From Chromera velia (lineage: Eukaryota > Sar > Chromeraceae), in NCBI GenBank assembly GCA_018398765.1, contig JAHBMJ010002315.1, positions 1 through 64,000 of the forward strand: a stretch of 64,000 nucleotides of DNA. Reading direction: 5' to 3'. The notes below the pieces were generated by a model, which was given only the letters and a program-made list of their open reading frames with translations, had not been told where the DNA came from and ran no database searches. Shown one piece after another: positions 1-20,189 of this stretch. Position 1 is the first letter of the stretch. Each line of letters starts with the position of its first letter. The translations under genes were made by a program, and so were the position numbers.

Positions 1-1605
1 ATTTGAATCAGCATGCGTGACGGATCGGTACGTGCAAAAGTTTTTTCGGGACCTTCATATTTGAGGTTGAAAGTCATATTGATCAAATATTTGATCGTAT
101 TTGATAGGTCTTTTAAACACTAGGTCCTCCCTGACTGGATATTTGATTTAAGCTTAAGCCCTACCTCAAATCAAATCAAATCAAATCAAACATGGTCACT
201 AGTCACATCATCATCATTATCATCATCATCATATAAAAAGAAAATCTGATTAATTGATCAATCTTCCTCGATTTTAAGTTCAAGCAGGACTGGTTTCTCC
301 TGGCAGGCCTTTGTGGTTGGGTCTGATTGTTTTTTTTCTTTCCTTAGCAACCAATAGCAACTTGAAGTCTGAGCTTAGATTGAGCTTAAACCATCAAATG
401 GTATAAGTTTACTTTTGACAGTGGACCGCGGAGGTTCAACACAGAATACAAACCCTAATCCTTATAAAGTAGTGCCACTGTAGTAGGCCAAACAGTGTAC
501 ACACAGTTTTCTAGGCAGTTTTTTATTTAGTTCAGAGATGTAAAATGTACCTAACTAATAGTCACCAGCCAATCTGAGCCTCTTTTGCTAAGCCTAGGCG
601 AAATTCATTACATACATGGTCTCTCAGTACATGATATCGAATGGTCGGGGCCGGACAGAGAGAAGGAAAATCAAATGCAGCTGACACTTGCGCGGAGGTC
701 TGGATACAAGAATTATTGTGCATAGGGCTACACGTATCTACACGTCACAGGGAGACTCGGAGTGCGTCGATGCTATAGCATTAGTACACATGCATAGCAG
801 TGCGAAAATGCTGAAAAGGAGTCGAAGAAAGATATATGCACATCTAGAAAAGAAAGATCGACGGAATCATGAGAGAAACTGCACTGGAGCCAACCAGGCT
901 CATTTCTGAACTAAGTCTTTGTGATATGTGTACATGCTGACAGCAATCCGAATCTTTTTGATGTCTCGATCCTTTCATGCTCCCAAACTTAATACCCCGA
1001 ATCCGGCCTCCTCCGCTTGAACGGCATTGCGGTGAAAGACACGAAAAAAAGAGCAGAGAGAGAGAGAGAGGCGGAGAGAAGAGAAGAGAAGAGAACAGAT
1101 TGACTCGGAGTTAGGTCTGCTTTCAGCTACGCATGAGACAGGTACTGTACTGGGAGGATTTGCGGGCCAAGAATGCCAAAAGGGAGGGAAAACAGCCCAA
1201 AAATTGCAGACTTTGAACTTGGGACGAAAAGAGGTGAGAAGAGAGATGAGAATCAATATCACATATTTGTGAGGACTTTCTTGACCCGACTTACCATCGT
1301 GAATATCTTTACACCGGGTCGTTGCAAGGCAGATAAAACGGCCGGTCCTCACGACTCCCTCCCAGATTTAGAACTCAAGACAATATAGAAAAAGTGGAAA
1401 GGATTGCTCTCTGGGAAATCACGCTACATGTCAAGCACAAAGAGGTCTTGGCCTCCCTGTGCGATTTGATTTCTCCCCCGTGTGCCCTCTCCCCCATGCT
1501 GAAGATACGAGTGCCGGAAAAGCAACAGATCGGGAAAAAATGATCAACTGCCAACGCCCAATGCCCTACACAACGCATCAAAGTACTTAATCGAAATCCT
1601 CTTCA
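1..1605. other. Intergenic region downstream of the RNF213-like gene
   Basis: AT-rich sequence without a convincing reading frame. It holds an AAATC/TCAAA tandem run near 166-190, a TCATCA-rich run near 204-231 and a GA-rich run near 1050-1095. The region lies 3' of the minus-strand RNF213-like gene, so its right end should carry that gene's 3' UTR and polyadenylation signal, which I cannot place with confidence. Confidence 0.6.
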
Positions 1606-3807
1606 TCACTTCAGGAATTTCTGTTTCGTCGAGAGACCGTTGCTGCACTGCCATTTTTGGTTGAGCTGACTGTCATAAAACAGCTGCTCGAGCCCAAACT
1701 GACAGAGGGCCGCAAGAAGAGAGACCCTCCTTCCATGATCCCCACCATGAACGGCCCTGCTTGCCTGCTCGATCCAACCCTTGATCTCTTCGCACGGCTC
1801 CTCTGCGAATCGCTGAGGGATTGACGGACTCTGGGCCCACGCCCAAGCAGCCACAGCCCGAAGATACTCCAGCTGCAGCGTCTCTCGCAAAAGAGAAGAG
1901 GAAAGGAGAATGTCCCTACCCAGTCTCTGATCGAGGGACAGCAGGTTGTTGGCATCCAGAAGCCCCGAAATGCTTGCGAAGTCCTTCAGGCCTGCGTTGA
2001 CTGAGGTCTCGAACCTCACAGGAATTCCACAGAACCACAGAACGAAGGAGAGAATTGCCTGTGCAAGGGCTGGGTCTCTCTGCCCAGCAACTATCGTTAG
2101 TCGCCGCAATTCCTGCAACGGAAATGTTGATTACAATTTCAGAAGAGAGGCACCCTGAGAGCAGAGAAGGACCAGAGAAGAGCTGACAAAGATTATGTGA
2201 AAAAAACATGTCCCGAGAAACGGAAAACCAACCTTTTCGATCTCCCTTAGAATCGAAATCGTCTGAGGAAGTTGATAGTGAAGCTTCGAGAGCAGGGATT
2301 TCTCTGGTGCCGAGTCGGAGTAGATCATCTCTTCGAGCTCGTTTGCAAGAAGGGCCTGCAACAACACAGGGATGCAAAGAAGGTCGAGAGGGATAGAAGG
2401 AAGATGGACAGAGACGGGGGCGGCTGCAAAGTGATCAACGAGACCGTCACGTTGACAGCAGGAAAGAGTCTTGCAGCTGCACTATTTTCTGGGCTGAATC
2501 TGTCTTTTCTGCTAAGAATTTATCTTGACGGACCTTCTTTCTCAGATCGAGGACTTCCACGAGCTGGTCCTGCAGCTGCTTCAGGTAGGCGAACTCGTGT
2601 GTCCCCCCAGCTGACAGGCTGAGGTTTCCCGCAATGAAGCTCGGCAGCATCGGAAAGAGATGCTCTGACGGGATGAAGACGAACATGTGCTCCTCACGAC
2701 ATCCGAAAGGATCCCCCTCTAGGGACTGAGGAGTGAATCCCCCACTCTCCGCCAGAGAAGCGATGATATACCGCTGCCGCTCTTCGCGACGGGCGTAGAA
2801 CGCCTTCGCGCAAAGCCCGAGACTCTGGTCGCCTGGCAGAATCATCGCGAGCGGAAGTTCTAGAAGGGGTGTTTCGAGGCAGATCTTCTTTACTCCATCC
2901 AAGTCCAGGCAGTCGTGCCTGCAAGTTGCGCAGAGGAATTTCAGATTGTACATCGTCAACAGCGGAGGACGGCAGCTGGCATGTTTCGCTATTCCATCGA
3001 CTTTGCTTGCGTGGCATGAGCAGCAAGACCATAAGGCTGACGGCCGGTTGGCGGACTGGAACGCTGCCAGCTAGAAAAAACACACAGAAGAAAAGACTAA
3101 ACAAAACTTCAAATGGAACAAAGCGCTCACACCAGAAACACAGAGAAGAGGCAACCAATGAAGAAACGAAACTGAACTACCGACCAGAAAAATTTTGGAA
3201 AGAAAAAAGAACACAGGTCGACTGACTGTGGCATGTGCATCCAGACAGCACAGAAGTCCTCGCTCATAGACTCAATTTTCACACGAATTTCCTCTGGATG
3301 CCCAGGGGTTAGTCTCCTCTCCCCCTGCAGTTGAGACAGAGCTTTGCTGACAGTGAGCGTCTCTGCCTCTCTCTTGGAGATACGTCGCTAGAAATGGGAC
3401 TTGAAGAGCCTCACAAGCCACACAAAGTGGGGAAGGATGTGAAGCAGTGAGTCCTTGGGGCGCTTCTCCTGCTGTGACAATGCTCGCAGGAAACGAAGGA
3501 CACCAAGCGAAGCGTCTGAAGGAAGGGCCTGCCAAAGAGTCTCCACAGTAAAGAGAGGGATGTACTTCCAATGGGACGGGAGAAGACGACTTCTTTTGGT
3601 TTTTGACCAGCTGCTCAAACGCTTTTTTGTGTAGTCTTCAGACATGAGGATGGCATCGGCTAGGGAGTCCCAAGCAAACTCTCGACAGGCTTGCTCTTTT
3701 CTCTCCACAAAACCCCGAATCAGTGTCCCCCGCTCTCGGAGGACAGGATCGATGAGCGCATCCTGACATCCGATCTCCAAAGTCTCTCTCAGCTGGCTGT
3801 TTGTCAA
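1606..3807 (-). CDS. RNF213: RNF213-like gene, C-terminal domain exons
   Basis: Four exons follow the RZ exon at about 3807-3388, 2959-2490, 2359-2232 and 2112-1606. The second holds MILPGDQSLGLCAKAFYARR, which matches the human LLPRRRGLGLCATALVSYL. The first holds VETLWQALPSDASLGVLRFL, comparable to human VPILWHFLQKEAELRLVKFL. The last holds LRRLTIVAGQRDPALAQAIL and ends in KQKFLK with its stop at the 1606 edge. Acceptors are TTGCAG-like. The order and lengths fit the C-terminal helical domain of RNF213. Confidence 0.82.
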
Positions 3808-6800
3808 CGGCCACGCTGACTGTCATGGAATCTGCACCAGATGGCGGGGGGCAGGTGAAAAGATACTCTCAATGCAGCAGTGAAGGAGTGCAAACGGAGA
3901 CAGCGACGCTTCCTCCTCACCCACAAAATGCCGTCTTCTGATTGCGGCGATGTCCTTCAAAATTCCCCGAGCCGCTCGCTTGCTAAGCTCACTGTCGAAG
4001 TAAGCAGCATCTGTGGACAAAAGGCCGCGGCCAAGAAGCGCAGCAGCTACCAGAGCTCGCAGAGAATGAAAAGAGGCGGGGTTTGGCCGTCTCACTGTGG
4101 TGTTGTGATCCGGTCTTGCCGTCAGGCGATCCTCCTCGATGTACCCGCGGTCGATAGGCAAGTGGTGCGCACCTTCGTTGTACTGCTGTCTGACACGGGC
4201 TACTTGACCGAGCCGTTGATTTTCTGCGTGGAGGTGGTCGGTGGAGTTCTTGCCACCGATCTGGGCTCCACAACCTTCGACAGGGCAGCGTCTCTCGTCT
4301 TGCATGTGGACACACCCTTCTGCAGTCACATGGGATGACACAAAAAAACACATGGCAGGGCCAGAAATAAAATCAACACACAGCAGGGCGGGAAACAATA
4401 AAAAAACGTGGCCATACAGCCCAGAGGTCGGAACAGGAAGCCGGAAGAATCGCATTTCTGAAAAAACAAAAGTAACGAGAGCAATGACTGACTGACCAGT
4501 GGTGTACAAGTGTCTATTGGGACAGAGGTACGCATAGTGTCGAGGTTCCGCGATTCTGAGCTTTCTCAAAGAACACTGTGGGACTCATGCCGGTCAGAAA
4601 AGACTGCTGAATATTAGATTCTGTCGGACTGCAAAGAATGCCTCCAAGATGCGCGACAAGAGGAACAGAATCGACCTGTTCCCTCTCACAACTCAGCAGC
4701 GCGGCTGTCAAGTGAAGTACCAAGTCGACAGATTGGACCCGCAGTGACTCTTGCACGTGATCCTGCAATCCGCCTGCCTCAACGTCAAACAGTCGTTCTA
4801 GAGCCTGAACGACATCACCTTCGTTCAAGTGAGCTCTCATCAGACTGACAGGGGTCTGAGAGAAAATGCGTCTTCCGGGAGAAACAGCAGTGTCTTGCAC
4901 TCTGTGCTCGAGAACGTTCAGAAGGCCATTCAAAGGCTGTAAGGGTCCAGCAACACCTCGCAACCCTCGTGCAGTGTCACACACAGCAAGAGAGAGGGCG
5001 CATCGCACCCTCTGCTGACTTTCTGCAGAAGAACATTCTTCCAACACGCCGACAATCCTTCTGGCAGCTGAGTGGGAGGCTTCTTCACTGACAACGCCGA
5101 GTCCCTGGAAGACTACCTCACCCAGCTCACGAAAGCTGCTAACGGCTGCGTACAGCGGTAGGATCCCCCCTCCCCTCCGCCATCCGTCGGCAAAAAAACG
5201 TCTCATTTCAGAGAGCTTCTCAAGATCCTCAGGGAAGTCAGACCTGTCCCCGACCTCACTCGCCCTTCCTTCGAGCCCCCGAGAAAACAAATGTCGAGTG
5301 GCGCCTATCTCAGGGCTCCCTCCGGTGAGGCATCGCAGAAAGAATATCTCTAGCTCCCGATGGAGGTCTGGGTTCAGCGAATCTCTACCCTGGCAGAGAA
5401 TGCTCAACACACCTCTAGCCACCTGCTTTACATCCTCCAAAGCGTCAAGACCCATCCCCTCGACACCTGTTCGATGCTCGACATCAGCCTCGGCTGCTGC
5501 TGGCACCGCAAGCAAAGTAGGGGAAGGTGGTGGAGATACGGGGGGCGAACGAGTTCCAGAGCCTGCAGGCGCAGCAGCGGCTGGTGCGGAAGGACGCGGT
5601 CCTGACATTGTTTCTTCATTCTGCTGGGACGGGAGAAGAATACAAGAGAGGAAGGCTGCGATGAGACGAGTGATCTTCATGGACGGCGACCACTCACACG
5701 CGACTGGCGGGTGCTTCTTGCAGGTCCAGCCAGGGATCATCCTGCCATCCCACACAGGCGCAACCCCTCCCACTGCAACCGCGTCATCTACTGATTGTTC
5801 ATCTCTGCACAGGTGAAGAAGACACTCTGCAAGCCTGTGCATCATCTTCTTCAGAGTCCCGACTACCAGTATGCGAAGGAAGGGAAGGTTCATCCCACCT
5901 GACTGATCAGCGATGCTTCCAAGTCTCCGCATGTGGTACAAGTCATTCTGCCAGAGCTCATCCAGACCTTCGGCAAATGGTTGACCCTCCACCCACTCTT
6001 CTGTATGGGACTGCGTGTGCATCCCATGCCCAGGTCCATCCCAGCTGACCCAAGCTTGGGAAAGGAGAACAGCGAAGGTGTCGTCCTGCGCGAATTCCTG
6101 TGCAATGATGAATTTGCTCAGCCTCTCCGACATAGACAGCCGGGTACCATCATCTGCCAGTCCGAAGACTGCAAAGATAAAATTGACAAAGCTGGTCGCG
6201 AGGGTTGTGCTCACTCCAGCACCTTCGCGTGCAACCGAATCACGCCAAGGGCAGGGGATGCGGTCGTTAAAGAGCAATCCAGCCGTCACCGTTTCTACCA
6301 GGGAGTCGGAAACAGTAGCAGACGGAGTCACGCTTTGCATGACACTCTGCAGCTCTTTTCGGAGGAAGAGAAACAGATCTATCAGCATCCTGCAGCAGGC
6401 GAGGATGACATCTTGATCCCGCCTGTCGTCTGGCAAGAGATCCTCTCCAGTGCGCGAGATCAGGATCTCAGCCAGCTCAATACCGGCCTTTAACAAGTTC
6501 ATGACAAAAAGGTCGAAATCCTCAGCGAGAGAAGCGATCTCTGCTGGTGAAGAGGATAAAGAGGAAGCCTTCGTTACTTTCTGTTGGCTGCATGGTTGGA
6601 GCTTCTGCAGGCCGGCCTTCCACGGCATCCATATGGAATCCTCTGGCAGCACTTCGGAGTTGGGAACCCCGATTGCGACCAGATGGCGCCATGCACAGCC
6701 CTCTACAGAGTGGAGAAGCTGAAGTCGGTGTGACTCCCGAACAAGCTGTGTGATGCGCTGCTGGACATGCCAGAGTGGCTGCAGGTTTGCTGGCGGGGAG

Positions 6801-9800
6801 CGAGCCTCAGCGCCTGTAGGCATGTTCTCACCAGTCACCACCGCCGCGGCAGCAGCAGCGGCCGCGACGATACGTGTGGGTCTGGAATCACCCAGAGCCT
6901 TCTCGGTTGTATTTGAGACTGAGGAAGTATCTCCCTCTACCCGGGCTGCACCGTGATACTTCTCTCCCGCTCTCAAACTACGAGTCCCAGAAGGGGCCTC
7001 CGAGAACCACTGAGTCACCCACAACTGCAAAAAGCTTGCCTCTTTCCAGCAGACAGAGGCAAAGAGCTTCAAACTGGACACAATCGCAGCGTCACAGAAA
7101 GAATCTGAGTTGCAGTTGGGAAAAAAGGCGGTCAAAAAGTGCTGCAGAATGAGAACAGCAGCGGGAGTCACAGAGCCACCTCCATCTACCTGTGGATGGC
7201 CCAAGAGCCGAAGCCACTCGGGAGGCAGAGTCTCACGAACGAACCCGTCGGCAGCTGCAACAAGCAAAGACGGGCAAGCCTCCACCAATTCCACGACCGC
7301 AAACAGGATCTGTGCGTGCATCTGATTCCGAAAGAGAAGGTGGACTTTGAACGGTGGAATGGCGTCTTCAAAAAGGTCGCACAGATCCTCGAACTTCGCC
7401 CTTGAGAATTCGTCGGGTTTTGCAAGAAGCAGAAGTGCGTCGGGAGGCACTCGAACAGAGTCAGCACACAGAAGTGCCACACATAAAAGCACAGCTGCGA
7501 CAGAGCTTTCGCAGATGTCTTTCTGCAGCTTTTCCTTTGTGAAACGCTGTATAGCTTCTGCTACATACCTAGCCTTCCATCTCGGGGGAAGGTTTTCCCC
7601 GTCAAGAACCTTGCACGCATCTTTGATAGCCTCCTGGAAGCTTTTGTCGGCTTCCGGAAGAGCTTCAAAGTTTCCAAGGTCGAACGCCTCTAACCACTTC
7701 ACGACACGAGCAAAGATGAAGGGAAAGAACGGGAAAATGATCGGTGACGCGCCCCCTCTCTCTGTCACCTCTTCGTCACAGTCCCGACCTTCCCACCCGT
7801 TTCGAGTATCCAGACCTCTGTCCAGTCGAAGGGGACACTGGGTTGAGAGAGGCTGGAACGATACCCAAGAAGCCACACCAGGAATTCCTGAAACGCTCTG
7901 ATGTGAAAACAGCTTTCCCCACACCTCAAGGTTACCAGAAAAATCGGCTCGAGAGAGGCGCAGGTTCTCTCGGCAGTCAGCGAAGGCAAGAAGGCTGACA
8001 AACACGCTGCAGAGTGTCTGGGAGAAGAACATCTCCAGAGCACTCATGCATATGCGCTCTGCCCCACCTGCAGAGCCTCCCAGCGCTCTGACCACCTGCC
8101 TTATCCACTCTCCGTTCTTCACAGGAGGGTACGCAAGGAGTTCGTCCAGGGCCCGTTGGACAAGCAGACGCACGGCGGGCAACGGTTCCCCGTGCTCACC
8201 TCGGAGGTAATAGCTCAAACGCCGTTGAGATTCTTCCAGGACAGACCTTGCACCTCCGTAGCCTACAGCGCAGCTTGGAAGACAGAACACCAAACGAGAC
8301 GCCATGCAGCCAATGTTGCTCTGCAGTATCTTGATCGCACGCTCGAGGGTGAGAATCTCGCGCGACAGAGGCAAGGGGGTCCAATCCCTCCCCTCATGAT
8401 GATGCAGGTCCCGGTAGCGACCTGCTTCACTGCACTGCAAGAAGTGTGCGAATGTCAGCCCTGTTGAGCCCTCTCGCTCAACCATCCTGTCTACAGAGAC
8501 CACGTGCCAGTCCTTCTGGAAAATGAGAGAGAATGACGTGGAGGAAGTCAATGCGCTTCCACTGCCTGTGGACAGGAGGGAGTGAACGATGACCACGTGC
8601 TTGTGGTGTACCGTGTCCACCTTCTCGGCGGATTCTGGCCGAGAGACTCCTCGCATGCGTGCCTTCTTGTGCATGCACTGAAAGCAGAGCTCGTGTAGAG
8701 TCCGGGTGACAAAACAGCCTGCTTTCCTGTCATGTAGCCCATCCTGAGCCAACCCTTCTGTGGCATCTTCAATTCGAATGAGAAGAAAGGCATCCCTTCT
8801 GCTGGGACTCGCAGCTGCCGCGGCCCCTCCACCCCCTCCTGGAAGTTTCAGTGCCTCCTCGTGCCAGTTGTCGCACGTGAAGAAGGCCTCGACCTGGTCT
8901 CTCACAGACTGCTGAGAAGACAGCGGATCTACGTGGAGATGGACGAAGGAGGAATTCGAAACGAGGCCAGCGTCGTTGATGCGACGACGGAGACTGGCTT
9001 CGAGATCGTTGAGAGTCCACGTGTGGGTAGGCTCTTCTGAGAGAATGAAGAGTTGGAGACAGTCTGCATTTCTCAAAAGGTCCATGTCTGGAGTCTGGCA
9101 AGGACCGCGCACTGCGGCTGCTCCCATCACCGTGCAATCCAATCCCGCCCCTTCCGACAGCTGGCAAAGCGCTTCAACCACCACCGCTGGTGCACTTTCA
9201 TGACGCTGGTACCAGAAGTACTCCCTCAGCATCCAGTTCACGTCGTCGGGCTCCAAGACTGGAGAGGCCTGTTCAAAGTCCCCAACTGCCAGACGAAGCA
9301 TGCTCTTGGGAGAGGCGGCCCAAAGCAGCTTCAGCAGCATCGCATCGCGCGAAAAGCCAGGAATGCCGAAAAGCGGAAACCCGAGCAGACCCGGAAGAGA
9401 GCATTCCGACTGCTTCTGAGAAGAAACCAGATGGGAAACGAAGAGACTGTTTGGTGTACAGTCGTCCAGAAATCCAGGGACCATATAGGACACCCACGAG
9501 TTGTCTTTCATGCTCTTAGCAACACGATGGTCGTGATCCGTGTCAGCTGTGGCAGCAAGAGCAGCAGCAGAAGGAGCAGCAGAAGCAGAAGCGACCGGGG
9601 GCTGTCTCACGGGAGGAGAGCCGAGAAAGAATCGTCGCATGCTTTTCATGGGGCGGCTCAGAGCTGCCGTACCGCATGCTGCAGATCTCTGAAAAATCTC
9701 CTCGAAGAAGGTCTCTGCTGCGATCCCGTCCTCTGCTTCCGACAAGCCAGGAAAACCGACAAGGGACTCATCATCTAGTCTCACTTTCTCGCACCTGTGG

Positions 9801-12800
9801 CGGAACTGAGGGGGAAGAAGCCAGAGATCTTCCAGGTCCACTACGAGAACGCAGCGAAAGCGGGGGTACACGGGACACGGCTTGCTGTGAGCTTGCATGG
9901 AGATCGTCACAAACTTGGAGCGGCCCTGAGTTCGCCAATGCTGCAGACAGAAGCAAGTGAAGAATTGTGGACCTACTCGATAAAACAATGGAATCAACTT
10001 ACTTTTGTGTCATTTCAGACCATGTCAAGGAGCTGAAAAACTCTCTTCACTTCATGAAGACTTTGATTCACTGCAAATCGAAATGGGAGACCAAAAATTG
10101 GAACTGGGGTTGACAGAGAAAAGCTGAGTGCCTGACTGACTTGATTGAGTAGGTCAGCCAGTGACTTGTAGAGGAAACGGCATCTGTACAGGATTGCCGT
10201 GTGCCCGGTGCGCATGCACCCCATCACTCTTTGCAGTTCGTAAAGAACTCGCTCGTCGGTCCACACAGCCTGATCGTCAGATCCCCAGATCACCTCAGTC
10301 TCTGTATGGCACAGCAGGCCCAGATCAAAAAGCAGGTTGACTGCCCTTCCGTGCTGCGTGAACAGCATAAGATGACGTCCGTCCGTCTCCTCAAGGTTTC
10401 GAGCGATTTGTTGAAGATCCATCTCCTGGTTGAGCACGGTGCTGCAGGACGGTCAGAGACTCTCGCCTGTGAGCCCCCTGGCACCCTCCAGGGTCTCTTC
10501 AACGGGCAAATCCGTTGCGTCGTCCTTCAGTAACCCGGCGCACAGACGGATGCGGTTGACACAATGCCGAAAGCTGTCAGCACAAGTGGTGCAATAGTCT
10601 GTTGGGCGTTCATTTCCCAGTCTGAACACAGTCGCTGCGTCTGGCGGGGCAGCAACGGAATCCCTTCCCTCCAAAAGAGCCCGGCAAAGGGCTTCTTGAG
10701 TTCTGCGCTGGACTCTTGAATCGATCGACCCAGAGAAAGCCGAACGGACAGCTCGGTGAATGGCATGGCTGTTGAGCCTGGCCTGGCTGTCCCCTTCGCA
10801 GCACTGGTGCGCAAGCAGCTTGATGAGGACAAGAAAGTCATGCTGCCCATTTGCGACAAAGAAGGGGAGACATAATAAAAGTCACCAACAGGCTGCTTAG
10901 TGTGGGACTGCTTGGAATGGAGCGAAGACCAAGCGATGAAACATAAATAGGAAGCAAAACAGAAGGGCAAAAAGACACAAAGAAAAACGAACAAAAAACG
11001 CCAAGACACATAAAAAGGAAGACACTCGGAGGAGCAGGGGCCGCGACTGACACATGAGTCTCGTGGAAGGGTCTTTGAAGACGTTCAGAACAATCGGTAC
11101 GAGATCTTCGACTCGGGATCGCAAAGCTTCGAGCTGGCTCTCTTGCTGGCGAGAGAGACGAGTCCCACTGTCATTGTAGCACGCCAGAATCAGGGCGTCA
11201 GCAGTCGCCTGCAGGCACTCAAAAGTAGGAACTCCACGATAGATGACGTTCCCATGTCCCATTTTAGCAGGATCGATTTTGTAGTTGCTCGTCGTGACAA
11301 TGGGCAGCTTGATCAGCTTTCCTTCGACCTCAACTCCGTGGTCGACGAATGCATGCAAGAGCATCAGCGGGTTGTGCGGAGAGAAGACTGTCACTCCAAT
11401 CTCCTCGAGAACCAGGATGACTTTGTGATCGAGCTCTCCCTGGATCATCGACTGATGGTAAAGACTCGCCGCTTTCTGTGCTCTCCGCAACAGAGCCTGT
11501 GAAGTCATCGTGGGAGTGCACTGAAGGGTCACTTTTGTCACATGCGGAAACTCCTTCTAGAAGGGACGTTGCCTGTTCTTCAAACTCATGTTCTAGCACA
11601 GAATGTCTACAGCAGACGACTTCGAACTTCCAGGAGTCCCAACGATCGTGATCATGCTGTCAGTCTCGATTGCGAGAAGCACACCGAGAACATTTTCCCG
11701 CACAGCAGCATTCACTGCATACTCTGGAGGGAGCTCCAACCGCTCGCAAATGAAGCCGGAAAGCTCGACAAACGGACGGTCGAAGTCGTCAGGAGAAGGT
11801 ATGAGAAGGAACAGTTTCGGAAGCCTCCCCGAATCAAGACGGGAGCGGACCTCTTCCCATTCGCGACAGAGGGCTTCCATGAAGCTTCTGCGGTCAGCCT
11901 GTGGAAGCCGTTGTGCATATGAGAACAAAAAGGTGGAGCGAACGGCGTCCGAAATCTCCCCCCATCTCGGCAACGCAGGTGGTGAGTCGCTCAACGAGTT
12001 CGCGGTCTACAGGTTGTCACGCGCATCTTCTACGACCTTCTGGAGACGCAGCATTCCGTCAATCGATCGCACCGCTCTCTCCATGTGTCGAAGGTTCACG
12101 AAGGGGAGGTCCGGACCAGCACGGCTGCGGAAGAATGCCTGGGAAGCGAGAAGAAGGCACGTCACCAATCTCCGGAACAACACCCAAAAGGCAGCCGTCT
12201 CACCGAAGTCCCGCAAGTTTCGCAATTTGAGGGCGGCACGCGGGTCATTCCTGCAAACAGATTGCGGGAGAAAACAGGAGGGCACCAAGGATTTATGTTT
12301 GATGGTACGCATGTCGTATACAGCCGTCCGCAGTCACTCAACAACCCATAGTCCTCGCTACCTCTAGCTGGCGTCGGCTTAGTCGACCTTTCTACTTGCA
12401 TTGCACTGCACTAAGTCTTCTTTCTTTACTTATTCTGGATCTAGACTACTGTCTCGCTTCCTCGCTCTGCCCGACCAGCGTCCCGACTTGTCATTGATTT
12501 TCTTTTTACTAAGCCACTTTTTCCTTTCTGAAGCAGAGTTTTATCCCACTTCTTTTTTTTTGCAAAGTGATCCTTTGTTGCGCTGTCAAGCCGGCTGACC
12601 CAAGTCCGGTGGATCCACTGATCAGCCCATGTACCATTCCTTCAGCAACGAGGGCCTCATCAGACAAGTACTTCGGCAGAAAGACCGTTCGCTTCTGCAC
12701 GGCATCTTCCGCTTGATGCACTGTCAGACAATTTCCCGCCGAGGTCTCATTGACCAGTCCAAAGTCCATCGTGTTCATCATCGTTGACTCTGGACATGTG

Positions 12801-15800
12801 TGAACTGGATAAATGAGGTGTGCAAAAGGGCTGCGGGCAAGAGTCCATTGTTGAAGACTCTCTGCGTTGGCACAAAGAGAGGCCCCCGCATTGGCCCTCT
12901 CGTGCTGCCCTGACGCCAGATGCCCTTCCTGCTCGAGGGTGCTCAAAAAGTACTCCTGGAAGTCCTGACCACTTTCGACCTCAGCGTGGCTGCAGACTTC
13001 TTCACCCGAATGGGATTCATCGCGATGATCACTCGAAGGTTGTCGGGGAGCTTCCGGCCACAAAGAAACTTGTCCTGACCCATTTCCTTCACGGCCCACG
13101 TTGCGGGAGAGGCGTTGGCCTCATCGAGAAAAAGAACGACGAGACTTGAAGGATCTCTTTTGGCTTTGCTGATCGCTGCCTTGATCTTGAAGAACCCCTC
13201 AAAACTTTCCCCGCTGTCCATTCCTCCGTGGATGTTGGCAACGAAGAAATGCCATCTAAGCATGAGGCAGAAAAATTCGATCAGCTTGGTCTTACCACAT
13301 CTGGTCTCCCCAGAAAGGCTAACCACCATGCCGCTCCGAAGTCTGACGGTGATGGCAAGCATCCTCATCAGATTTTCAAGTGTAATCGTCACGTTCTCCT
13401 GCCGGATTCTCTCCAGCACGGACTTAGCCTCTCGACGGAAGTCTTTAGGCGTCCTCCCTCTGGATCTTCTGTTCCCTGCAACTGCTCTCCCACTCGAAGC
13501 CGTTGCCTCCTGAAAGGACAGCGCATCCCTTGCTGCAATCACCGACTGCAGCTTGTCGAGGGACTCCCAGCCATGCACAATCAAATCATCCGAGAGCGGG
13601 TGCCCTCTGCTGTATGAGGAACTCGTCAGTCTCTCATAAACGTGCCAGACGGAGAGCGCTTCGGCTGCGTGGAAGAGTGTTCAAATTCGAAGACGTCCCC
13701 CCTCGAAGTTGGCAAGCACCTTCCTCTCGCGGTCTGACGGACAACCAAACAGTTCGAAGCCTACGGACTGAAACCACTGCTTGAACTCGGCAACCTGTCT
13801 GCTCTCCGGATAGGTCTGGAGAAGCTCCGTCATCAGGCTCCGGTCGTGCAGAGACACAAGGCTGTAGCTGTCGTCGTGAAAGACGATGTAGGCCTTAAAG
13901 AACTCGTCGCTCTCGAAAGATGGAATCTTTGAGAACCTCTCATAGTGGTCGGCCTCTGCTTCAGCCAGGGAAGACGTTGTAGGAGGATCGAGAGTCGACA
14001 GCACCAGCAGTGGGGTGGTTCGCAGGACCAGGTTCACAACCATGTGCATCAGCATCGAGGCAAGGGTGGACTCTGTTGTTCTGAAGAGCCTGCTCAAAGC
14101 AGCATGGAAGAAGGAAAGAGAAGCTTCCAACAGTCCTCTACGAACCCCCGTCCCAGAATTCTTCAAAGCGGCAATCACGTTGTTGAAGTAGTGAAGCAGG
14201 GGACTGGCGTGGGCCTCCATCATCTTTGCAAATCGGCAGCGCATCGGGAGGGAGGACGTGAGCTTCTCAATATCTTCATCACTCCTTCCAGTATCCCGCA
14301 ACACCCAGCACATCGCAGCCCTCAAGACAAGGTCAACCTCTGAGCGAGCGACTTCCGGCAAAGAATCGGGAAAGACACGCTGATCGACTCCAGCAAGGAA
14401 GCCCTTCAAAATGGAGATCACCTGCAAAAGCACAGTGTCATTCTCCCTCGCAACGGTGTAGAGGAGATCTTCTGAATTCTTCACTGCTTGCAAACGAGGA
14501 AGCGACGCACGAATCGAGGTTTGGATACGGGTCGGTGCAGCAAGAGTCTGAACGATGGGAAGCGCCTGCCAGAAGAAGAAATCCTTGGGGCATCTTTCAG
14601 ACGGCAGTTCTATCGCCACATGATCCACAGCTCTGAGACGAAAGACGCGACCCTGGGAGTCCCCCAAATGTCCAAGGACAAACAAAGAGAAGAGGCTTTC
14701 CGACAGCTCTGGGAGACAAGCAGCGTGGCCGATGCTGAGGTGAACCTTCACAGAGTCCAGCCACTGTGCAGTCCTCCTTGCACGTGCGAGACTCTGCAGT
14801 TTGGGACCGAGGTACCGGACCGTGGGGTCTCTGTCGATGCTGATGCGGTGGTAGGCAGGTTCATTTCCTGGTCGCCCGCTTTTGTGGAGGAGAATGGCAC
14901 GGGTCTTTCCCTCAGCAGGGTTTGCCGTCGTCCAGACAGAGACCGACGCGCTGCCGACCAGTCTTTGGCGCATCAGACGCCGCGCTGGGATCAAGCTGCA
15001 AAGAAACACGGTAGAAGACGTGCAGATGAGCGTCTAATCAAGAACTTATTTTGCGAAATCGGCAGCACCAAAGAGTTGAGCAACTGCTCGCAGACTTACC
15101 AATTGGTCAAAAGGGACGAGTTCTGGTCGAAGAGCCGCAGCTTGAAAGTCTCTGACAGGAGCTCACAGGCAGAATGGGCATTGTACAGCTCCTCGAGTGT
15201 CTGTATGGATGTCATCCATGCTAAGAGCTGTGAGCAACAGGAATGCGGACCCCTGAGACGTCTCTCCTTGCCTGCAAGAACATACAGAGCACAGATGTCA
15301 GCAATAAACTCTCCTTTATATCCTTAGGATCAAAGTCGGGGGAGAGAGAAAAAGGCAGGGTGGCTCACTTTGTGTCTGATCTGGTAACGGCCGCTTGCAC
15401 TGCGCTCAGTTCCTCCTTCAATGCGGAGAGAAGAGGTCCAGACACGTCCTCGGGAATCATCATGACAAAGAGGAGGTCGAGGTTGAGGACACGGGACTGC
15501 TGCCAGCGCTGGATAAAAGCCTTCAGGCACGCCTCCGTGACTTCACGATTGAGGATGCACACCTCGAAGGGAGCAGGCCTACGCTTTCCAAAAACGTTGA
15601 ACAGGTTGACAACGAAGGGCGGCAGCAAGGACCGCGTGGGCACGTCAAACAAAAGAGCGCGAGTGCCATCTCTCCCAGTGTGAACTCGTTCGAATGGATC
15701 GACGAACGGTGTCTGAATGGAGGCTTGCTGGAAGCGCAAAACAGCAAAGGGAGGCGTGCTCTGGCGAACCGACTGCAAAAGCCCAGAGAGTGATACGTGC

Positions 15801-18182
15801 GCCTCTCTCTCCTGGATTCCAAAAGAAACAAGGGCGTCGGATGTGTCTACATTTTCAGGGTAGTGAAGGTGGTCCAAAATCCTCCTTTCTGCACCAGCTG
15901 TTTCCAGGATCCCGAGAAGCAAGGTGTACCCCGTCTCAGCGCTAAAAGAGCCCGACAAGTCGTTGCAATCCCTCACTGCTCGTTCGGCTGCTTATTGAAC
16001 CGCGCATGGCGATAGAAGGAGAGAGAGGTAGTTGCAGAGAGATGCTTTCGCTTTTTGAACACGTGAAATGACGGAGCGTGAGCTCTTGTCGCGAGGTGCA
16101 TTGCAGAGCGCCGACAGAGCCCCGCTTTGATCACGGGCTGCATCGCTGAGCAGGGACGCCTCACGCCATCTCGGGCGGCTTTGCAGAGAACAGACAGCGC
16201 TTGCAACATTCGAACAAGCTGTTTGAGGTCGAAAAGCCCCAGAAAGGGTGACCGGGTCGTTCCTCTGAGAGATCTGTGCCATGAACTCATGTTGAATGTC
16301 TGCCCAGGCCCCAATCTGCAAGCACGGCACATTGAGTCGCAACTTTTTCAAGCACTCTTTCGTGAAGTAAATCTGCATGACATGGGTTGGCCACAACCTA
16401 GGTAGTGGCTCACTGGCTTCAAACAGAAAAATTGAACTCATTCACGACTGTGTGACGGCAGAAATGTCCTTCTCTGTCCAACTGAATGCTCATTCACGCC
16501 TGCCCTTCCACCCATCCTTCGCCTTATCGGGTCGTTCGGGCGGCCGGCCCGATCAAAGATCCATTCTCCAAAGTTGCGCACAGCTCGCCGGGAAGAACCA
16601 GACAACAGTCGACCCCCCTGGAGTCGAAGTAAAGCAAACCCGCAGTCACTCTCCTTCTTGCACAGCTGATCTTTGGCAGAACCTGCAGCAACGAGATACA
16701 ATCGTTGTATCGACAGAACTGAAAAATTCTCCTCGCAAGAACTGAAAAATTTCCCAAGTGGCAGGAAACGGTTTTCAGATGGGCTCGAAACGGAAGGGGG
16801 GAAATGCCTTTCGACTGTTTCGGGGTGGGAATGCCTTTGCGCGAGTGAAAATGGAGCGACTTACTTTCCACACCGTCAACGTCTCGCGTGACCTTCTGAA
16901 GCCTGGCCAAAACCCCCAGGAGCAGATCAGAGAGTCTCTCCTGTCCACCCTGAGAAACCAGGAGTCCCTCGACCTTCTCTTGCAAAATTGAGGCAGGCCA
17001 GACCTCCACGAGAAGAGAAGCAACGGCGCTTGTTCCAGGGGATCGGTCCCTCACAACTTCTTCGAGAACGTCAGGATCAAGGAGTGCGGGATCGTAGTCC
17101 TCTGGAAATGTCTCCCGAGTTATGGTACCCGCTCCCTTCAGGAGGGCACGGATCAAGAAGGCGTACACGGCACACTGAACGCAGGCGGGACAAGCGTCAT
17201 CCCGGAAAGAGCGCACGATGATGGAACACCACACCTGGATATTCTCTGAAAAGAAAGTGGTCAGCTCGTGCGAACGACCCTTGATCAGGTTCCACTCAGC
17301 AGGCCCTGGCTGCATCCGGTGGACCACGTCCGAGACGTTCTTATCGAAAGGCAGGTAAGGAGGCCTCAGAAGCCGCATCAGATGGAGAGGGTGGTCTCCA
17401 AATTTCTTGATGAAGTCAGACAAGAAATGATGCGGCCTCAGAGGCATGTCCTTGCCGATAAAGTCCAGTTCCTTGAAGCACACGGTCACCAAATCGTCCC
17501 AGCTTCGCAGATCAGGGCTACGAGCTGGCGGGCCGAAAGCATGGAACTGCTGCGCAGTGGTCAGAATTGAAACGAGGGCCTCGACATCATCCCGGGGCCC
17601 TGATCGGCCCTGAAATCCAGCAGGATAGACTGAGAAGAATGGATTCATTCTGTTGGGGTGTCCGGCCTCCACAACTGTGACGATGAAGGCCGACGCAGGG
17701 TCAGGCTTCAACTCGCCTCTGACTATCTCTCTTCCCCGCCATTCGAAAGCTGCCCCGCCATCCAGTAGATTCAGCAGGAAGACTGCCTTCTGTCTGGATG
17801 AAGGCCATTTCAGCCTTGTCCCGAAGAGGTTGGAGCCATCTGCGTTATCGGAACACTTCAGGGGCGTAAGCTGAGAAGGGTTGTACCAGTCGGTATTGAC
17901 ATGCAGCCGAAGATCGATCGACGACCAAGCCTCAGTACTTCGGCAGTATGGAAAGTAGAAGAAGAGATAACGGATTCTGTCAACATCCACAGGTGCTACT
18001 GCTGTTTCCTTGAATGCCTGGCGTCCCCTAGGGCCACGATATCTATCTTGAATGGCGTGTATCGATTCCGGACGTATTGACGGAACCAAACATGTTGTGC
18101 TCTCAAAGTAGGAGACGGCACACAGAAGGAGACGAGACACACACCCATGCAGGTTCGTGTAAGGGACCTTGGCGAAGCACAA
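1606..18182 (-). CDS. RNF213: RNF213 (mysterin)-like giant AAA+ E3 ubiquitin ligase, multi-exon
   Basis: Read on the minus strand, successive open exons follow human RNF213 in order. They are a region preceding AAA2 (about 15976-15365), AAA2 (15009-13681), AAA3 (13584-12600), AAA4 (11994-11050), the AAA5/6 region and E3 shell (10437-4570), the RZ finger (4569-4260) and the C-terminal domain (to 1606). Human RNF213 is a 5,207-residue dynein-like ATPase and ubiquitin ligase that acts on lipid droplets and on intracellular bacteria. Here the visible exons give roughly 4,300-4,600 residues. The shortfall is mostly N-terminal, since no CBM20-like segment was found. The first exon is uncertain: an open frame begins near 18182, but upstream exons are possible. 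The largest exon is about 5.4 kb (9997 to about 4570). Family assignment is secure from the combined AAA3, AAA4 and RZ signatures; the exact exon structure is not. Confidence 0.9.
4260..4569 (-). CDS. RNF213: RZ-type zinc finger of the RNF213-like protein, split by an intron
   Basis: After removal of an intron at about 4320-4496 the sequence reads LCPNRHLYTTEGCVHMQDER, then RCPVEGCGAQIGG and a His-rich stretch with DHLH. Human RNF213 has TCPNGHPCSVGECG, CIDCHAPIGG and IDHKP in the same order. The zinc ligands (Cys, His, then a Cys pair) and the loop Cys of the EC/GC pair are conserved. In RNF213 and ZNFX1 the RZ finger is needed for ubiquitin transfer. The frame here is offset by one base from the long exon upstream (see findings). 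Confidence 0.92.
4320..4496 (-). other. RNF213: Intron inside the RZ finger
   Basis: Donor GTCAGTCAGT follows the codon stretch for LYTT, and a TGACTGCAG acceptor precedes AAGGGTGTGTC. Joining phase 1 to these two bases gives Glu and restores the RZ motif in frame. The length is about 177 bp. Confidence 0.8.
4570..9930 (-). CDS. RNF213: RNF213-like gene, very long exon: AAA6 end, hinge and E3 shell without a RING
   Basis: One exon of about 5.4 kb with no in-frame stop. Landmarks match the human order: a SKFV...VLVVDLEDLW strand, a DAFLLIRIEDATEGL strand (human CKILIFQTDFEDG), KDWHVVSVDRMVEREGS (human LWQSVHIDDLRRST), then a long helical E3 shell. The E3 shell ends in ALLSCEREQVDS and SPTESNIQQSFLTGMSP, directly before the RZ finger. 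An Ala-rich and Pro-rich low-complexity insertion lies near 5480-5600, and Ala runs lie near 6840-6870. In the place of the human RING (about 6540-6700) there is no Cys/His zinc pattern. Confidence 0.85.
10015..10437 (-). CDS. RNF213: RNF213-like gene, AAA5 region exon
   Basis: The exon encodes HLMLFTQHGRAVNLLFDLG, followed by a segment with VIWGSDDQ and later LYRCRFLYKSLADLLNQ. These match the human stretch YLLVLTKNYVALQIL, IIFGSGFP, LLLNLQNLYESLYDALNQ. In RNF213 this part is an inactive AAA-like module with no Walker motifs, and none is visible here. The next exon (from about 9925) continues with FRCVLVVDLEDLWLLPPQFR, equivalent to human FRLIVIEEKDVVYKHFPIPL. Confidence 0.85.
   Translation of the reverse strand: MLNQEMDLQQIARNLEETDGRHLMLFTQHGRAVNLLFDLGLLCHTETEVIWGSDDQAVWTDERVLYELQRVMGCMRTGHTAILYRCRFLYKSLADLLNQVSQALSFSLSTPVPIFGLPFRFAVNQSLHEVKRVFQLLDMV
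11050..11994 (-). CDS. RNF213: RNF213-like gene, AAA4 ATPase module (two exons)
   Basis: The Walker A variant GTPGSSKSS near 11615-11648 matches the unusual human AAA4 loop GKPGSSKS, in which Ser replaces the usual Gly before Lys. After an intron near 11545-11590, the next exon reads VTLQCTPTMTSQALLRRAQK (human VSFQCSPHSTPQG...). It then has the Walker B strand VILVLEEIG near 11393-11423 and SNYKIDPAKMGHGNVIYRG, which matches human SNWALDPAKMNRGIFVSRG. The exact AAA4 Walker B in human is VVVLDEVG, so here the first acidic residue is Glu and not Asp. Confidence 0.92.
12600..13584 (-). CDS. RNF213: RNF213-like gene, AAA3 ATPase module
   Basis: The Walker A motif SGETRCGKTKL lies near 13285-13320, where human has GETGCGKTRL. 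A NIHGG motif follows, where human has VHGGT. The Walker B LFLDEANASP lies near 13107-13137, where human has LFFDEANTTE. GRKLPDNLRVIIAMNP follows, where human has a GQPL...IIAACNP segment. A second exon (about 12830-12600) carries LIYPVHTCPESTMMNTMDFG, matching the human QLVYRVH...LVWDFGQL strand. AAA3 is an active-type ATPase module with both Walker motifs complete. The short intron between the two exons lies near 12940-12835. Confidence 0.93.
13681..15009 (-). CDS. RNF213: RNF213-like gene, AAA2 and linker exon
   Basis: The exon starts with a degenerate nucleotide-binding loop (ANPAEGKTRAI) and continues with a segment like the human AAA2 core (VKVHLSIGHAACLPELSES). Near its end is KAYIVFHDDSYSLVSLHDRS, which matches the human PYVFFNDDHTTMTF strand that precedes AAA3. 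Human AAA2 also has an imperfect P-loop, so the degeneracy here is a family trait. The exon is followed by a short intron and the AAA3 exon. Confidence 0.8.
   Translation of the reverse strand: MFLCSLIPARRLMRQRLVGSASVSVWTTANPAEGKTRAILLHKSGRPGNEPAYHRISIDRDPTVRYLGPKLQSLARARRTAQWLDSVKVHLSIGHAACLPELSESLFSLFVLGHLGDSQGRVFRLRAVDHVAIELPSERCPKDFFFWQALPIVQTLAAPTRIQTSIRASLPRLQAVKNSEDLLYTVARENDTVLLQVISILKGFLAGVDQRVFPDSLPEVARSEVDLVLRAAMCWVLRDTGRSDEDIEKLTSSLPMRCRFAKMMEAHASPLLHYFNNVIAALKNSGTGVRRGLLEASLSFFHAALSRLFRTTESTLASMLMHMVVNLVLRTTPLLVLSTLDPPTTSSLAEAEADHYERFSKIPSFESDEFFKAYIVFHDDSYSLVSLHDRSLMTELLQTYPESRQVAEFKQWFQSVGFELFGCPSDRERKVLANFEGGRLRI
15365..15976 (-). CDS. RNF213: RNF213-like gene, exon preceding AAA2
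   Basis: An open exon whose segment RPAPFEVCILNREVTEACLK, followed by a hydrophobic LDLLFVMMIPED, aligns with the human RNF213 stretch just before AAA2 (RPLPTYDEVLLC..., then an LVMVCDGD-like strand). The spacing to the AAA2 exon matches the human order. Introns flank it, and the N-terminal junction near 15976 is not resolved. Confidence 0.7.
   Translation of the reverse strand: MRDCNDLSGSFSAETGYTLLLGILETAGAERRILDHLHYPENVDTSDALVSFGIQEREAHVSLSGLLQSVRQSTPPFAVLRFQQASIQTPFVDPFERVHTGRDGTRALLFDVPTRSLLPPFVVNLFNVFGKRRPAPFEVCILNREVTEACLKAFIQRWQQSRVLNLDLLFVMMIPEDVSGPLLSALKEELSAVQAAVTRSDTK
16863..18182 (-). CDS. RNF213: RNF213-like gene, first recognised exon (N-terminal region)
   Basis: This open frame of about 440 codons is rich in aromatic and hydrophobic residues and ends at a strong GTAAGT donor near 16862. 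The next exon starts after a TGCAG acceptor near 16687 and keeps phase 1 in a different frame (SAKDQLCKKESDC...). The segment corresponds by position to the part of RNF213 N-terminal to the AAA core, but I see no residue-level match to a named domain. The initiation codon is unresolved: the frame opens in a CTP-rich stretch around 18182 that may be intron. Confidence 0.6.
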
Positions 18183-19144
18183 ATCTCATCCCTACGCAAA
18201 CAGTTTTTTGTGATTCTTGGAGTCTCCTCGAGTTGCCCAAGAAGGAAAACACATTCTAAGTCTTTCCGATAGTTTAACAGACAAGCACGAGCGCCGGGAC
18301 GCCATAGATGGAGACGGCATCCACGCGCGCGCTCATGCAATTTAGCAGAGCGGGTTCGGCGTGGCTCGGCGTGGCCCCGGAAGTCTGGCGCATCCAGCGT
18401 GCGAAAGCAAAAAAACTAACAATTTCTTGTTCTATATGCACACGCAGTGATCAGAGCTTCACTCTATACAGGCGGAGAGGAACCTTGCATGATAGTGACT
18501 AATGCATGGTTACTAATGGCCGGTGACTGCGGGTGAGCCAGAGTGAACAATGATTAAATAATTTAAAAACGGATGGATTGTTTTCATCGGGAGCGGCGCT
18601 TGTATTAAAATTGAAGTGTCAATTAAGAAAAGTGACGTACACCAAACTATATCACATCTGCCCTTCATAATAAGCTCATATATATGGGGATGCGACATAG
18701 ATAATAAAAACCTCGGTCATCACTATGCTACACACCTGTAGTACGTAGAGACTAGTACTAGAGAGAATTATAGAGATCGCGATGAAGAACATGTATATAA
18801 GAAAAATAAAGTCCAAGCTGGCAGGGGCTAGGATAAGGGTACAGTGACCAGCTAGGTGACCAGACACTTTAATAATTAACACACAACTGCAACTTGCGCA
18901 CATTATAGGCAGCAATGTACAGCAGTGTGTTACATAGACCGCAGGCAAAACCCTATAAAACTAGCTACAAAACCCGGAACATCAATCATTGTTATGCAAT
19001 GCGATACAATGCACTAGACAATGCACTGCCGTTTACGGGGGCGACCTCTATAAGACAAAACGGTGACAGTGCTTTAAGGCACCACTAAATCATTTATAAC
19101 TTATGCTACAAAAAGAAAGAAAGAGAAAACTCAGCCGGAGTCTG
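18183..19144. other. Intergenic region upstream of the RNF213-like gene
   Basis: AT-rich DNA with short frames only. It should contain the promoter, and possibly a first exon, of the minus-strand RNF213-like gene. I can point to no specific promoter element. Confidence 0.55.
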
Positions 19145-19151
19145 TTATACG

Positions 19152-19174
19152 TACCCCCAAGAAGCCTTCCTATG
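19152..19174 (+). repeat. Left inverted repeat of candidate element
   Basis: TACCCCCAAGAAG followed by CCTTCCTATG. It matches the reverse complement of 20594-20616 at 21 of 23 positions. Confidence 0.75.
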
Positions 19175-19212
19175 ACCCTATAGTCTGTCAATCAAACTCC
19201 AGGCTTTGGCAG

Positions 19213-19233
19213 CCTGGCGCCTTCGGCGCCAGG
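19213..19233. repeat. Perfect 9-bp hairpin, CCTGGCGCC-TTC-GGCGCCAGG
   Basis: Perfect inverted repeat with a 3-base loop inside the left subterminal unit of the candidate element. The loop-flanking CGCCTTCGGCG sequence is the same as in the tandem array on the right. Confidence 0.75.
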
Positions 19234-19952
19234 GCTTTGACGATAGAAAGCTCATTCTTTCTAGTATACAATATCGTCAAGGCTCTGATGACAGAAAGCT
19301 AATTCTTTCTAGTATGGAATATACCTCCAGTCCATTGTAGCTTAAAGATATTATAACCTAATTTAATCTAGTTTAACCTAGTTTTATAATATTTTAATAC
19401 TCTCTTATAGTATCTGCTATAATCAACTTAAATATGTAAAATAACAAAAAAAAAAATATTGATTTTAATCAGTTTGAATCTGTTAGTCTTAGTCAGTCTT
19501 CACTTAGGAATTCTAGATCCATGGACTCTGCGTGCAGCAGGGCGATAGTCATTGTCATCATCATCAGACTCTGTAACCCCCCCTCCTTCGCTACCACTAT
19601 ATTCGCTCGTCGCCCGGGCAAACAAAGTAGCCTTTGCTTTCGCCTTGTTTTTTGCCTTAGCCTTTGCTTTTACTTTCACTTTTCCTTTTGCTTGCGCTCT
19701 TTGTCCTCTTGCTTGAGTACGTGAAGAGAAGTGGAGAACACTGACCGCAGATGCAGTTCTTCGACATGCATGCATACAGAACGATTGAGTCAGCCAGTGA
19801 AAAAGAAACGGACCCATCCAGTTGGCCATCAATCCCCGCGATGCTCCAGAAGGAGGACTCTTCTCCCGCATAGAGGGGAGGGCAGTCCGTTTCCGAGACT
19901 GCGTGTCAGCCTCCTGTACCGGGGGCGCCTTTTGCTAAGGTTCCGCTTTCTG

Positions 19953-20189
19953 TCAGCCCCCTCCAAGCCGCTTCAAAAAAAAAGTCTTCAATTCGTCGGC
20001 CTGTCGAACATGTCGAAGCTTCAGAGCTTTAAATTCCTTTCGGGGTTCAAAGTACTTCTCAATATGCTCTGTGGATTCCACCCCCAACGTCTTCAGAAAG
20101 AACTCTAAAACTGACTCCGCAAGGGCCGCATCTTCAAGGAAGTCCGACACAGCAATTCGCAAACGAGCGTCAAAAGGCAGGCTGGACAT
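19953..20189 (-). CDS. Small hypothetical ORF inside the candidate element
   Basis: From an ATG at 20189 the frame encodes about 78 residues beginning MSSLPFDARLRIAVSDFLED. It is a well-mixed, helical, leucine-rich composition quite unlike the low-complexity frames around it. A second in-frame ATG lies 33 bp upstream after a T-run. I recognise no family. It sits within the inverted-repeat-bounded element and could be the remains of an element-encoded protein. Confidence 0.4.
   Translation of the reverse strand: MSSLPFDARLRIAVSDFLEDAALAESVLEFFLKTLGVESTEHIEKYFEPRKEFKALKLRHVRQADELKTFFLKRLGGG

Follow-up and report, generated by a model that had tools for sequence, protein, structure and literature searches.

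Can an RNF213-type ubiquitin ligase exist in nature without its RING? The question is raised by a gene on the minus strand of a 64-kb stretch of Chromera velia DNA (C2302:1-64000, hereafter the window), which a first-pass annotation took to encode a natural RING-less RNF213 that keeps its RZ finger. The mammalian protein supplies the background. Mouse RNF213 in which the RING (residues 3941-3999) was replaced by a linker was as active as the wild type in auto-ubiquitylation (excerpt of PMC7311170). Ubiquitin goes via the RZ residue Cys4462, with His4483 as the base, and the enzyme is activated by ATP binding to AAA3 and AAA4 and docks its E2 through the C-terminal domain (CTD; excerpt of PMC12075652). 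When the RING was inactivated in cells, two bacteria were still ubiquitylated and ubiquitylation of the Toxoplasma vacuole was partly impaired; RZ mutations abolished ubiquitylation of both bacteria and the vacuole (excerpt of PMC11549300). The excerpted texts thus agree with the premise that transfer by mammalian RNF213 is independent of the RING and dependent on the RZ finger, save for the partial RING effect at the Toxoplasma vacuole. For the isolated RING, activity in vitro is cited in the excerpt of PMC11549300, and none was detected according to that of PMC12075652. The function of the RING is called elusive in the excerpt of PMC12440826, which argues for its importance from conservation and from Moyamoya mutations. 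In the open-licence full text of PubMed Central we found no description of a natural RING-less RNF213.

The window contains a long open frame that runs on the minus strand from 10009 to 4517, with 1831 codons free of stops, whereas none of 50 shuffled versions of the 64 kb had a frame of more than 289 codons. Coding starts at about 9940; AAA5 lies at the start of the frame, followed by the E3 part and, at 4586-4600, the anchor FLTGM. The whole 1831-residue frame had no PDB match at E≤1, and therefore kinship was demonstrated exon by exon. An open frame at 13680-12946 (minus strand), with Walker A GETRCGKT at 13288-13311 and Walker B VVLFLDEA at 13117-13140, corresponds to AAA3; its best PDB match by phmmer was RNF213 (E 2.6e-12), followed by midasin (7.1e-4). 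AAA4 is spread over two minus-strand frames, one at 11596-12006 with Walker A GTPGSSKS (11617-11640) and one at 10900-11556 with Walker B ILVLEEIG (11395-11418). The second of these matched RNF213 in the PDB at E 3.2e-8 (phmmer), and nine of the ten sequences matched at E≤1 were RNF213, the tenth being a designed peptide (0.79). The AAA4 exon of a second locus in the same genome, C330, used as query, also found this part of the window (C2302:11191-11667, E 1.8e-10). For AAA5, a minus-strand exon at 10452-10141 was spliced to the long frame (donor 10140, acceptor 9940); the product matched RNF213 AAA5 at E 6.9e-12 across the junction, and its further PDB matches were four unrelated chains at E 0.32-0.88.

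RNF213 chains were therefore the top PDB matches for AAA3, AAA4 and AAA5 alike, in agreement with the annotation of an RNF213-like protein, and, judged by its AAA core, the gene is real and RNF213-like. The Walker A motifs are intact, and the nucleotide-binding motifs of AAA3 and AAA4 are kept. The predicted Walker B motif of AAA4 has Glu in place of the Asp of human, mouse and C330, with the catalytic Glu retained, a substitution that may change nucleotide handling. A search for relatives by AAA4 alignment in viral contigs and prokaryote genomes yielded 26 and 21 pattern matches, respectively, none of which was confirmed.

A RING is built of several Cys pairs, with eight zinc ligands in cross-brace order. 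Across the whole long frame, Pfam returned no family at E≤1. At E≤10, eight proteins (two in-frame stretches covering 7600-4520 and six open reading frames in alternative frames) gave a weak IQ motif as the sole match; in the positive control, the human RNF213 RING by itself was recognized as zf-C3HC4 at E 1.8e-8. The strict C3HC4 pattern did not occur in any of the six frames across the 64 kb. Because a degenerate finger in C330 also escapes this pattern, others were added. Two relaxed half-RING patterns, the first of which does detect the C330 finger, had no match in open reading frames of at least 20 amino acids on both strands of window positions 1-20000. The only CxxC among the 1831 residues of the long frame falls at 8675-8686, ahead of the E3 part, although residues 755-1800, which make up the E3 part, include 26 Cys and 25 His. 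With one CxxC and no half-RING in 1-20000, the window protein lacks the eight ligands of a cross-brace.

We also built a RING profile. Of nine loci in the genome that were searched for fingers, five yielded one within the length limit; human, mouse and C330 brought the profile to eight rows. The best score of this profile at window positions 1-16000 was 8.0 bits, a value attained by 11 of 20 single-base shuffles, and the best over the whole 64 kb was 10.9 bits. The 47.5 bits of C330 in the same profile follow by construction, C330 being in the training set. Trained without C330, the profile gave the C330 finger 10.1 bits (E 0.045), which ranked first in C330; trained on the genome's own fingers alone, it gave the human RING 21.9 bits and left the C330 finger outside the top three. 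RING profiles are thus weak for degenerate fingers, so that such RINGs can escape detection. The CxxC count is independent of the profile. Taken together, the RING is absent from the predicted window protein on all tests made, and none is detectable. The first-pass statement that the long exon has no C3HC4 motif therefore stands, with zero support for one from Pfam, patterns or profiles, and the scan with RING profiles and Pfam that had been proposed as its check found no RING in the long frame or in the alternative frames scanned.

The RZ finger, described by the first-pass annotation as complete in its Cys/His ligands and loop Cys, does have all of these residues; it lies outside the long exon, in another frame, and is split by an intron. 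Its first exon (4497-4584, minus strand, upper boundary provisional) carries Cys at 4524-4522 and His at 4512-4510. The second (4173-4319, minus strand) carries the Cys equivalent to the nucleophile at 4314-4312, the zinc Cys at 4287-4285 and 4272-4270, and a candidate base His at 4236-4234. The intron between them, with donor 4496 and acceptor 4319, was the sixth of six pairs listed by score and was selected because it restores the RZ pattern. With this splice, on which the score depends, Pfam PF20173 matched at 35.9 bits (cut-off 27); without it, the second half alone was caught, at 19.1 bits, under the cut-off. The human RZ finger scored 74.7 bits in the same scan. In human RNF213 the zinc ligands are C4505, H4509, C4525 and C4528, the nucleophile is C4516 and the base is H4537 (excerpts of PMC12075652 and PMC11549300). 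The window finger has an equivalent of each of these six, the base His as a candidate, in the order C-x3-H-x6-C-x8-C-x4-C-x11-H, compared with C-x3-H-x6-C-x8-C-x2-C-x8-H in human; the spacing is longer by two residues within the final ligand pair and by three ahead of the base His. Across the genome (an assembly of 177.8 Mb in 4040 contigs), PF20173 gave three weak matches (C1374, C1789 and C961) and none above the cut-off; the window finger is missing from these because it is split by its intron. The best of the three, at C1374:17698-17838, reached 22.8 bits; since a C3HC4 RING pattern overlaps it, it is probably no RZ finger and was set aside.

How the RZ finger is joined to the rest of the protein is less regular. 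The long frame passes through the FLTGM anchor and stops at 4517, and the RZ frame starts at 4584. Their overlap (4517-4584, minus strand) requires that the reading frame change or that an intron start from an upstream donor; such introns connect the two frames but delete the anchor, and no ordinary intron that fits between the frames was seen. An indel in the assembly, a genuine frameshift or an upstream-donor intron could account for this place. The stretch around the break is single-copy in the assembly, and introns interrupt other domains of the gene too.

The E3 part itself has diverged strongly. The long exon had been described as collinear with human RNF213 from AAA6 through the E3 shell. 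We found instead that its start matches AAA5 and that residues 755-1734 fare no better than shuffles: their score against a human plus mouse RNF213 profile was reached by 100 of 100 shuffles, and against a profile with C330 added by 8 of 100. The last stretch of the frame, with the anchor, together with the RZ finger outscored all 100 shuffles with both profiles. Human RNF213 entered the E3 and C-terminal comparisons as segments of 889 and 358 residues, respectively, each with its mouse counterpart. Since the part before the anchor does not align, the proposed pairing of IGVPNSEVLPEDSIWMPWKA (6614-6673) with the start of the human RING has no support. MAFFT sets the human post-RING helix near 6200 rather than at 6614-6673, also weakly, and hhalign of the window E3 part with RNF213 profiles gave a probability of 0.1. 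As for the E3-back, shell and core fold, nothing before the anchor aligned above shuffles, and the AlphaFold2 model that was computed from the single sequence of 718 residues (5609-7762) had a pLDDT of 39.8 and was set aside. The position of the lost RING cannot be fixed by alignment, neither 6614-6673 nor about 6200 being secure.

Downstream of the RZ finger, tentative C-terminal exons in several frames, with provisional splice sites, occupy 1609-4010 on the minus strand and include LGLCAKA (2801-2821), GLEQLFYD (1672-1695) and LNQKWQCSNGL (1633-1665). The region scored weakly against the human plus mouse C-terminal profile (3.0 bits; one of 100 shuffles as high), and a single query made of the RZ finger and C-terminus had no PDB match at E≤1. 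For the CTD we looked for the E2-docking residues, which in mouse are F5093, W5097, D5101, Y5106 and E5108. LNQKWQCSNGL, soon after which a stop follows, could equal the docking helix; no W-x3-D/E motif occurs in the minus-strand frames below 1750, and no counterpart of the last ~40 residues of human RNF213 was seen in the window protein. The docking helix thus seems at best partly kept, and the predicted C-terminus looks short. RNF213 that lacks the CTD, or just the final 20 residues of that domain, is reported to be inactive on the substrates tested (excerpt of PMC12075652). The frame break and the short C-terminus are real arguments against activity. An otherwise intact E3 module is not supported, since the frame is broken ahead of the RZ finger, the E3 part has diverged beyond alignment and the C-terminus seems about 40 residues short.

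The window gene has company in the genome. Searches with AAA and E3 exons led to four RNF213-like loci, the window (C2302), C330, C1056 and C3877. Weaker matches were seen in C3846 (56442-56600, a 53-residue match to the window AAA4 exon, E 0.009), C1388 (0.14) and C1183 (0.96). Of the copies, C330 is closest to animal RNF213 in AAA4: its exon matches RNF213 at E 4e-61 and is 47% identical to human, and the window AAA4 stretch is 30% identical to that of C330 over the aligned part. The spliced E3 model of C330 matches RNF213 at E 1.5e-4, with the domain that pairs RCSHSVCLDC with the human RING contributing only 0.1 bits. Against the human plus mouse profile it gave three collinear domains (33.8 bits in total), the first of which (6.4 bits) runs from the second half of the RING into the helix that follows, and MAFFT aligns the entire finger, from CDRC to CGVGGC, with the human RING. 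In Pfam the finger reached 17.6 bits as zf-RING_5, below the cut-off of 27.9. C330 is thus predicted to carry a degenerate RING-like finger at the human RING position, but an altered RZ: in its sequence, CPNTKCGEPYHVGDC...KCSHCGGPIGRG, which an FL.GM anchor precedes, Cys replaces the ligand His and the base position has no His (Pfam 23.1 bits, under the cut-off).

In C1056 (~27990-28850), the site after an FLPGM anchor lacks the last two RZ ligands in the splices tried, two versions gave no Pfam hits, and the profile detected no RING; this copy is possibly a fully E3-dead RNF213 paralogue. C3877 (48766-65425) is a very divergent RNF213-like locus with open frames of 1028, 971 and 836 codons, in which no RING was found by profile; its 971-codon frame (58622-61534) has a Cys-rich CCFCKGRRC. 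Among the paralogues, then, the window copy seems to keep the RZ finger and have no RING, C330 to have a RING-like finger and an altered RZ, and C1056 to be without both.

We interpret the window gene, with a probability of about one half, as coding for a divergent RNF213-family protein that has lost its RING, has a complete RZ finger and would act as a RING-independent transthiolating ubiquitin ligase. The parts of the first-pass proposal that survive in this interpretation are kinship, the absence of the RING and the RZ residues; the site of the lost RING and an intact E3 part are not supported, and the gene is not the only copy in its genome. The RING is most simply taken to have been lost in the window paralogue, since in C330 the position homologous to the human RING is occupied by a RING-like finger. 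That finger is degenerate and below the cut-off, so the argument for loss depends on a weak finger. The predicted architecture is a dynein-like AAA core, a RING-less E3 region, an RZ finger and a C-terminal region, in a photosynthetic eukaryote. The contigs gave 58 chlorophyll-binding matches, one such exon having an LHCI chain as its best PDB match (E 4.1e-23), and no match to Photo_RC. By analogy with mammalian RNF213, ATP bound at AAA3 and AAA4 would license the E3, an E2 charged with ubiquitin would dock on the C-terminal domain and hand its ubiquitin to the RZ Cys at 4314, with the His at 4236 assisting the onward transfer, and we infer from the same analogy an ATP-licensed, RING-free transthiolating ligase.

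The chief rival explanation is a non-catalytic or decaying paralogue, whose AAA core serves as a scaffold or regulator, whose E3 part is eroding and whose RZ residues are leftovers or a structural zinc site. The frame break before the RZ finger, the unalignable E3 part and the short C-terminus all speak for it, as does the sister C1056, which has apparently lost RZ ligands too. On the other hand, 1831 codons have stayed free of stops with the Walker A motifs intact, and the RZ finger retains every one of its six zinc and catalytic residues, more than C330 does. We regard decay as possible, though on the unlikely side. An ancestral absence, in which this branch never had a RING, or the C330 finger arose separately and nothing was lost, is an unlikely account: the finger that would have to be explained away sits at the human RING position, with the following helix aligned too, in the copy whose AAA4 is nearest to that of animal RNF213 (47% identity), even though the finger is weak (17.6 bits against 27.9) and C1056 and C3877 are RING-negative as well, by profile only. 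That a RING exon was missed, because introns split it, it fell into a gap of the assembly or it has degenerated too far to be seen, we consider very improbable. Introns do divide other domains of this gene, and the C330 finger reached only E 0.045 when untrained and fell outside the top three with the genome's own RINGs alone; against this, the frame is unbroken from AAA5 to the RZ anchor, has one CxxC in 1831 residues and is accompanied by no half-RING in alternative frames.

Comparison with known systems places the predicted RING-less ligase more closely. With human and mouse RNF213 it shares the AAA3-AAA5 matches, the order of AAA core, E3 part, RZ finger and C-terminal region, and the RZ zinc and catalytic residues; it differs in having no RING, longer RZ spacing, an unalignable E3 part, a shorter C-terminus and the Asp to Glu change in AAA4. 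The engineered RING-deleted mouse protein (excerpt of PMC7311170) likewise has its RZ finger and no RING, but it is a laboratory construct that is otherwise intact, whereas the window protein is without a RING by nature and its E3 part has diverged. C330 shares a homologous AAA4 and the FL.GM anchor ahead of the RZ finger, and is unlike the window in its RING-like finger and in an RZ with Cys for the ligand His and no base His. ZNFX1 also has an RZ finger with a nucleophile Cys and a base His (excerpt of PMC12075652); it is set apart by its description as an RNA helicase, not a dynein-like protein with six AAA modules.

The pattern among the paralogues also allows the rather doubtful idea that the zinc modules were divided after duplication, with C330 having a RING-like finger without the normal RZ histidines, the window an RZ finger without a RING, and C1056 neither. 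If that were true, RING and RZ would be separable in nature, and the RING would serve a role other than RZ catalysis. If the reading of the window gene as a RING-less, RZ-dependent ligase is true, nature itself has performed the RING-deletion experiment in an alga. The RING-bearing sister C330 makes the genome its own internal control, but the window gene is a divergent paralogue. A natural RING-less, RZ-complete protein beside such a sister would allow a comparative test of the role of the RING, in addition to the engineered deletion.
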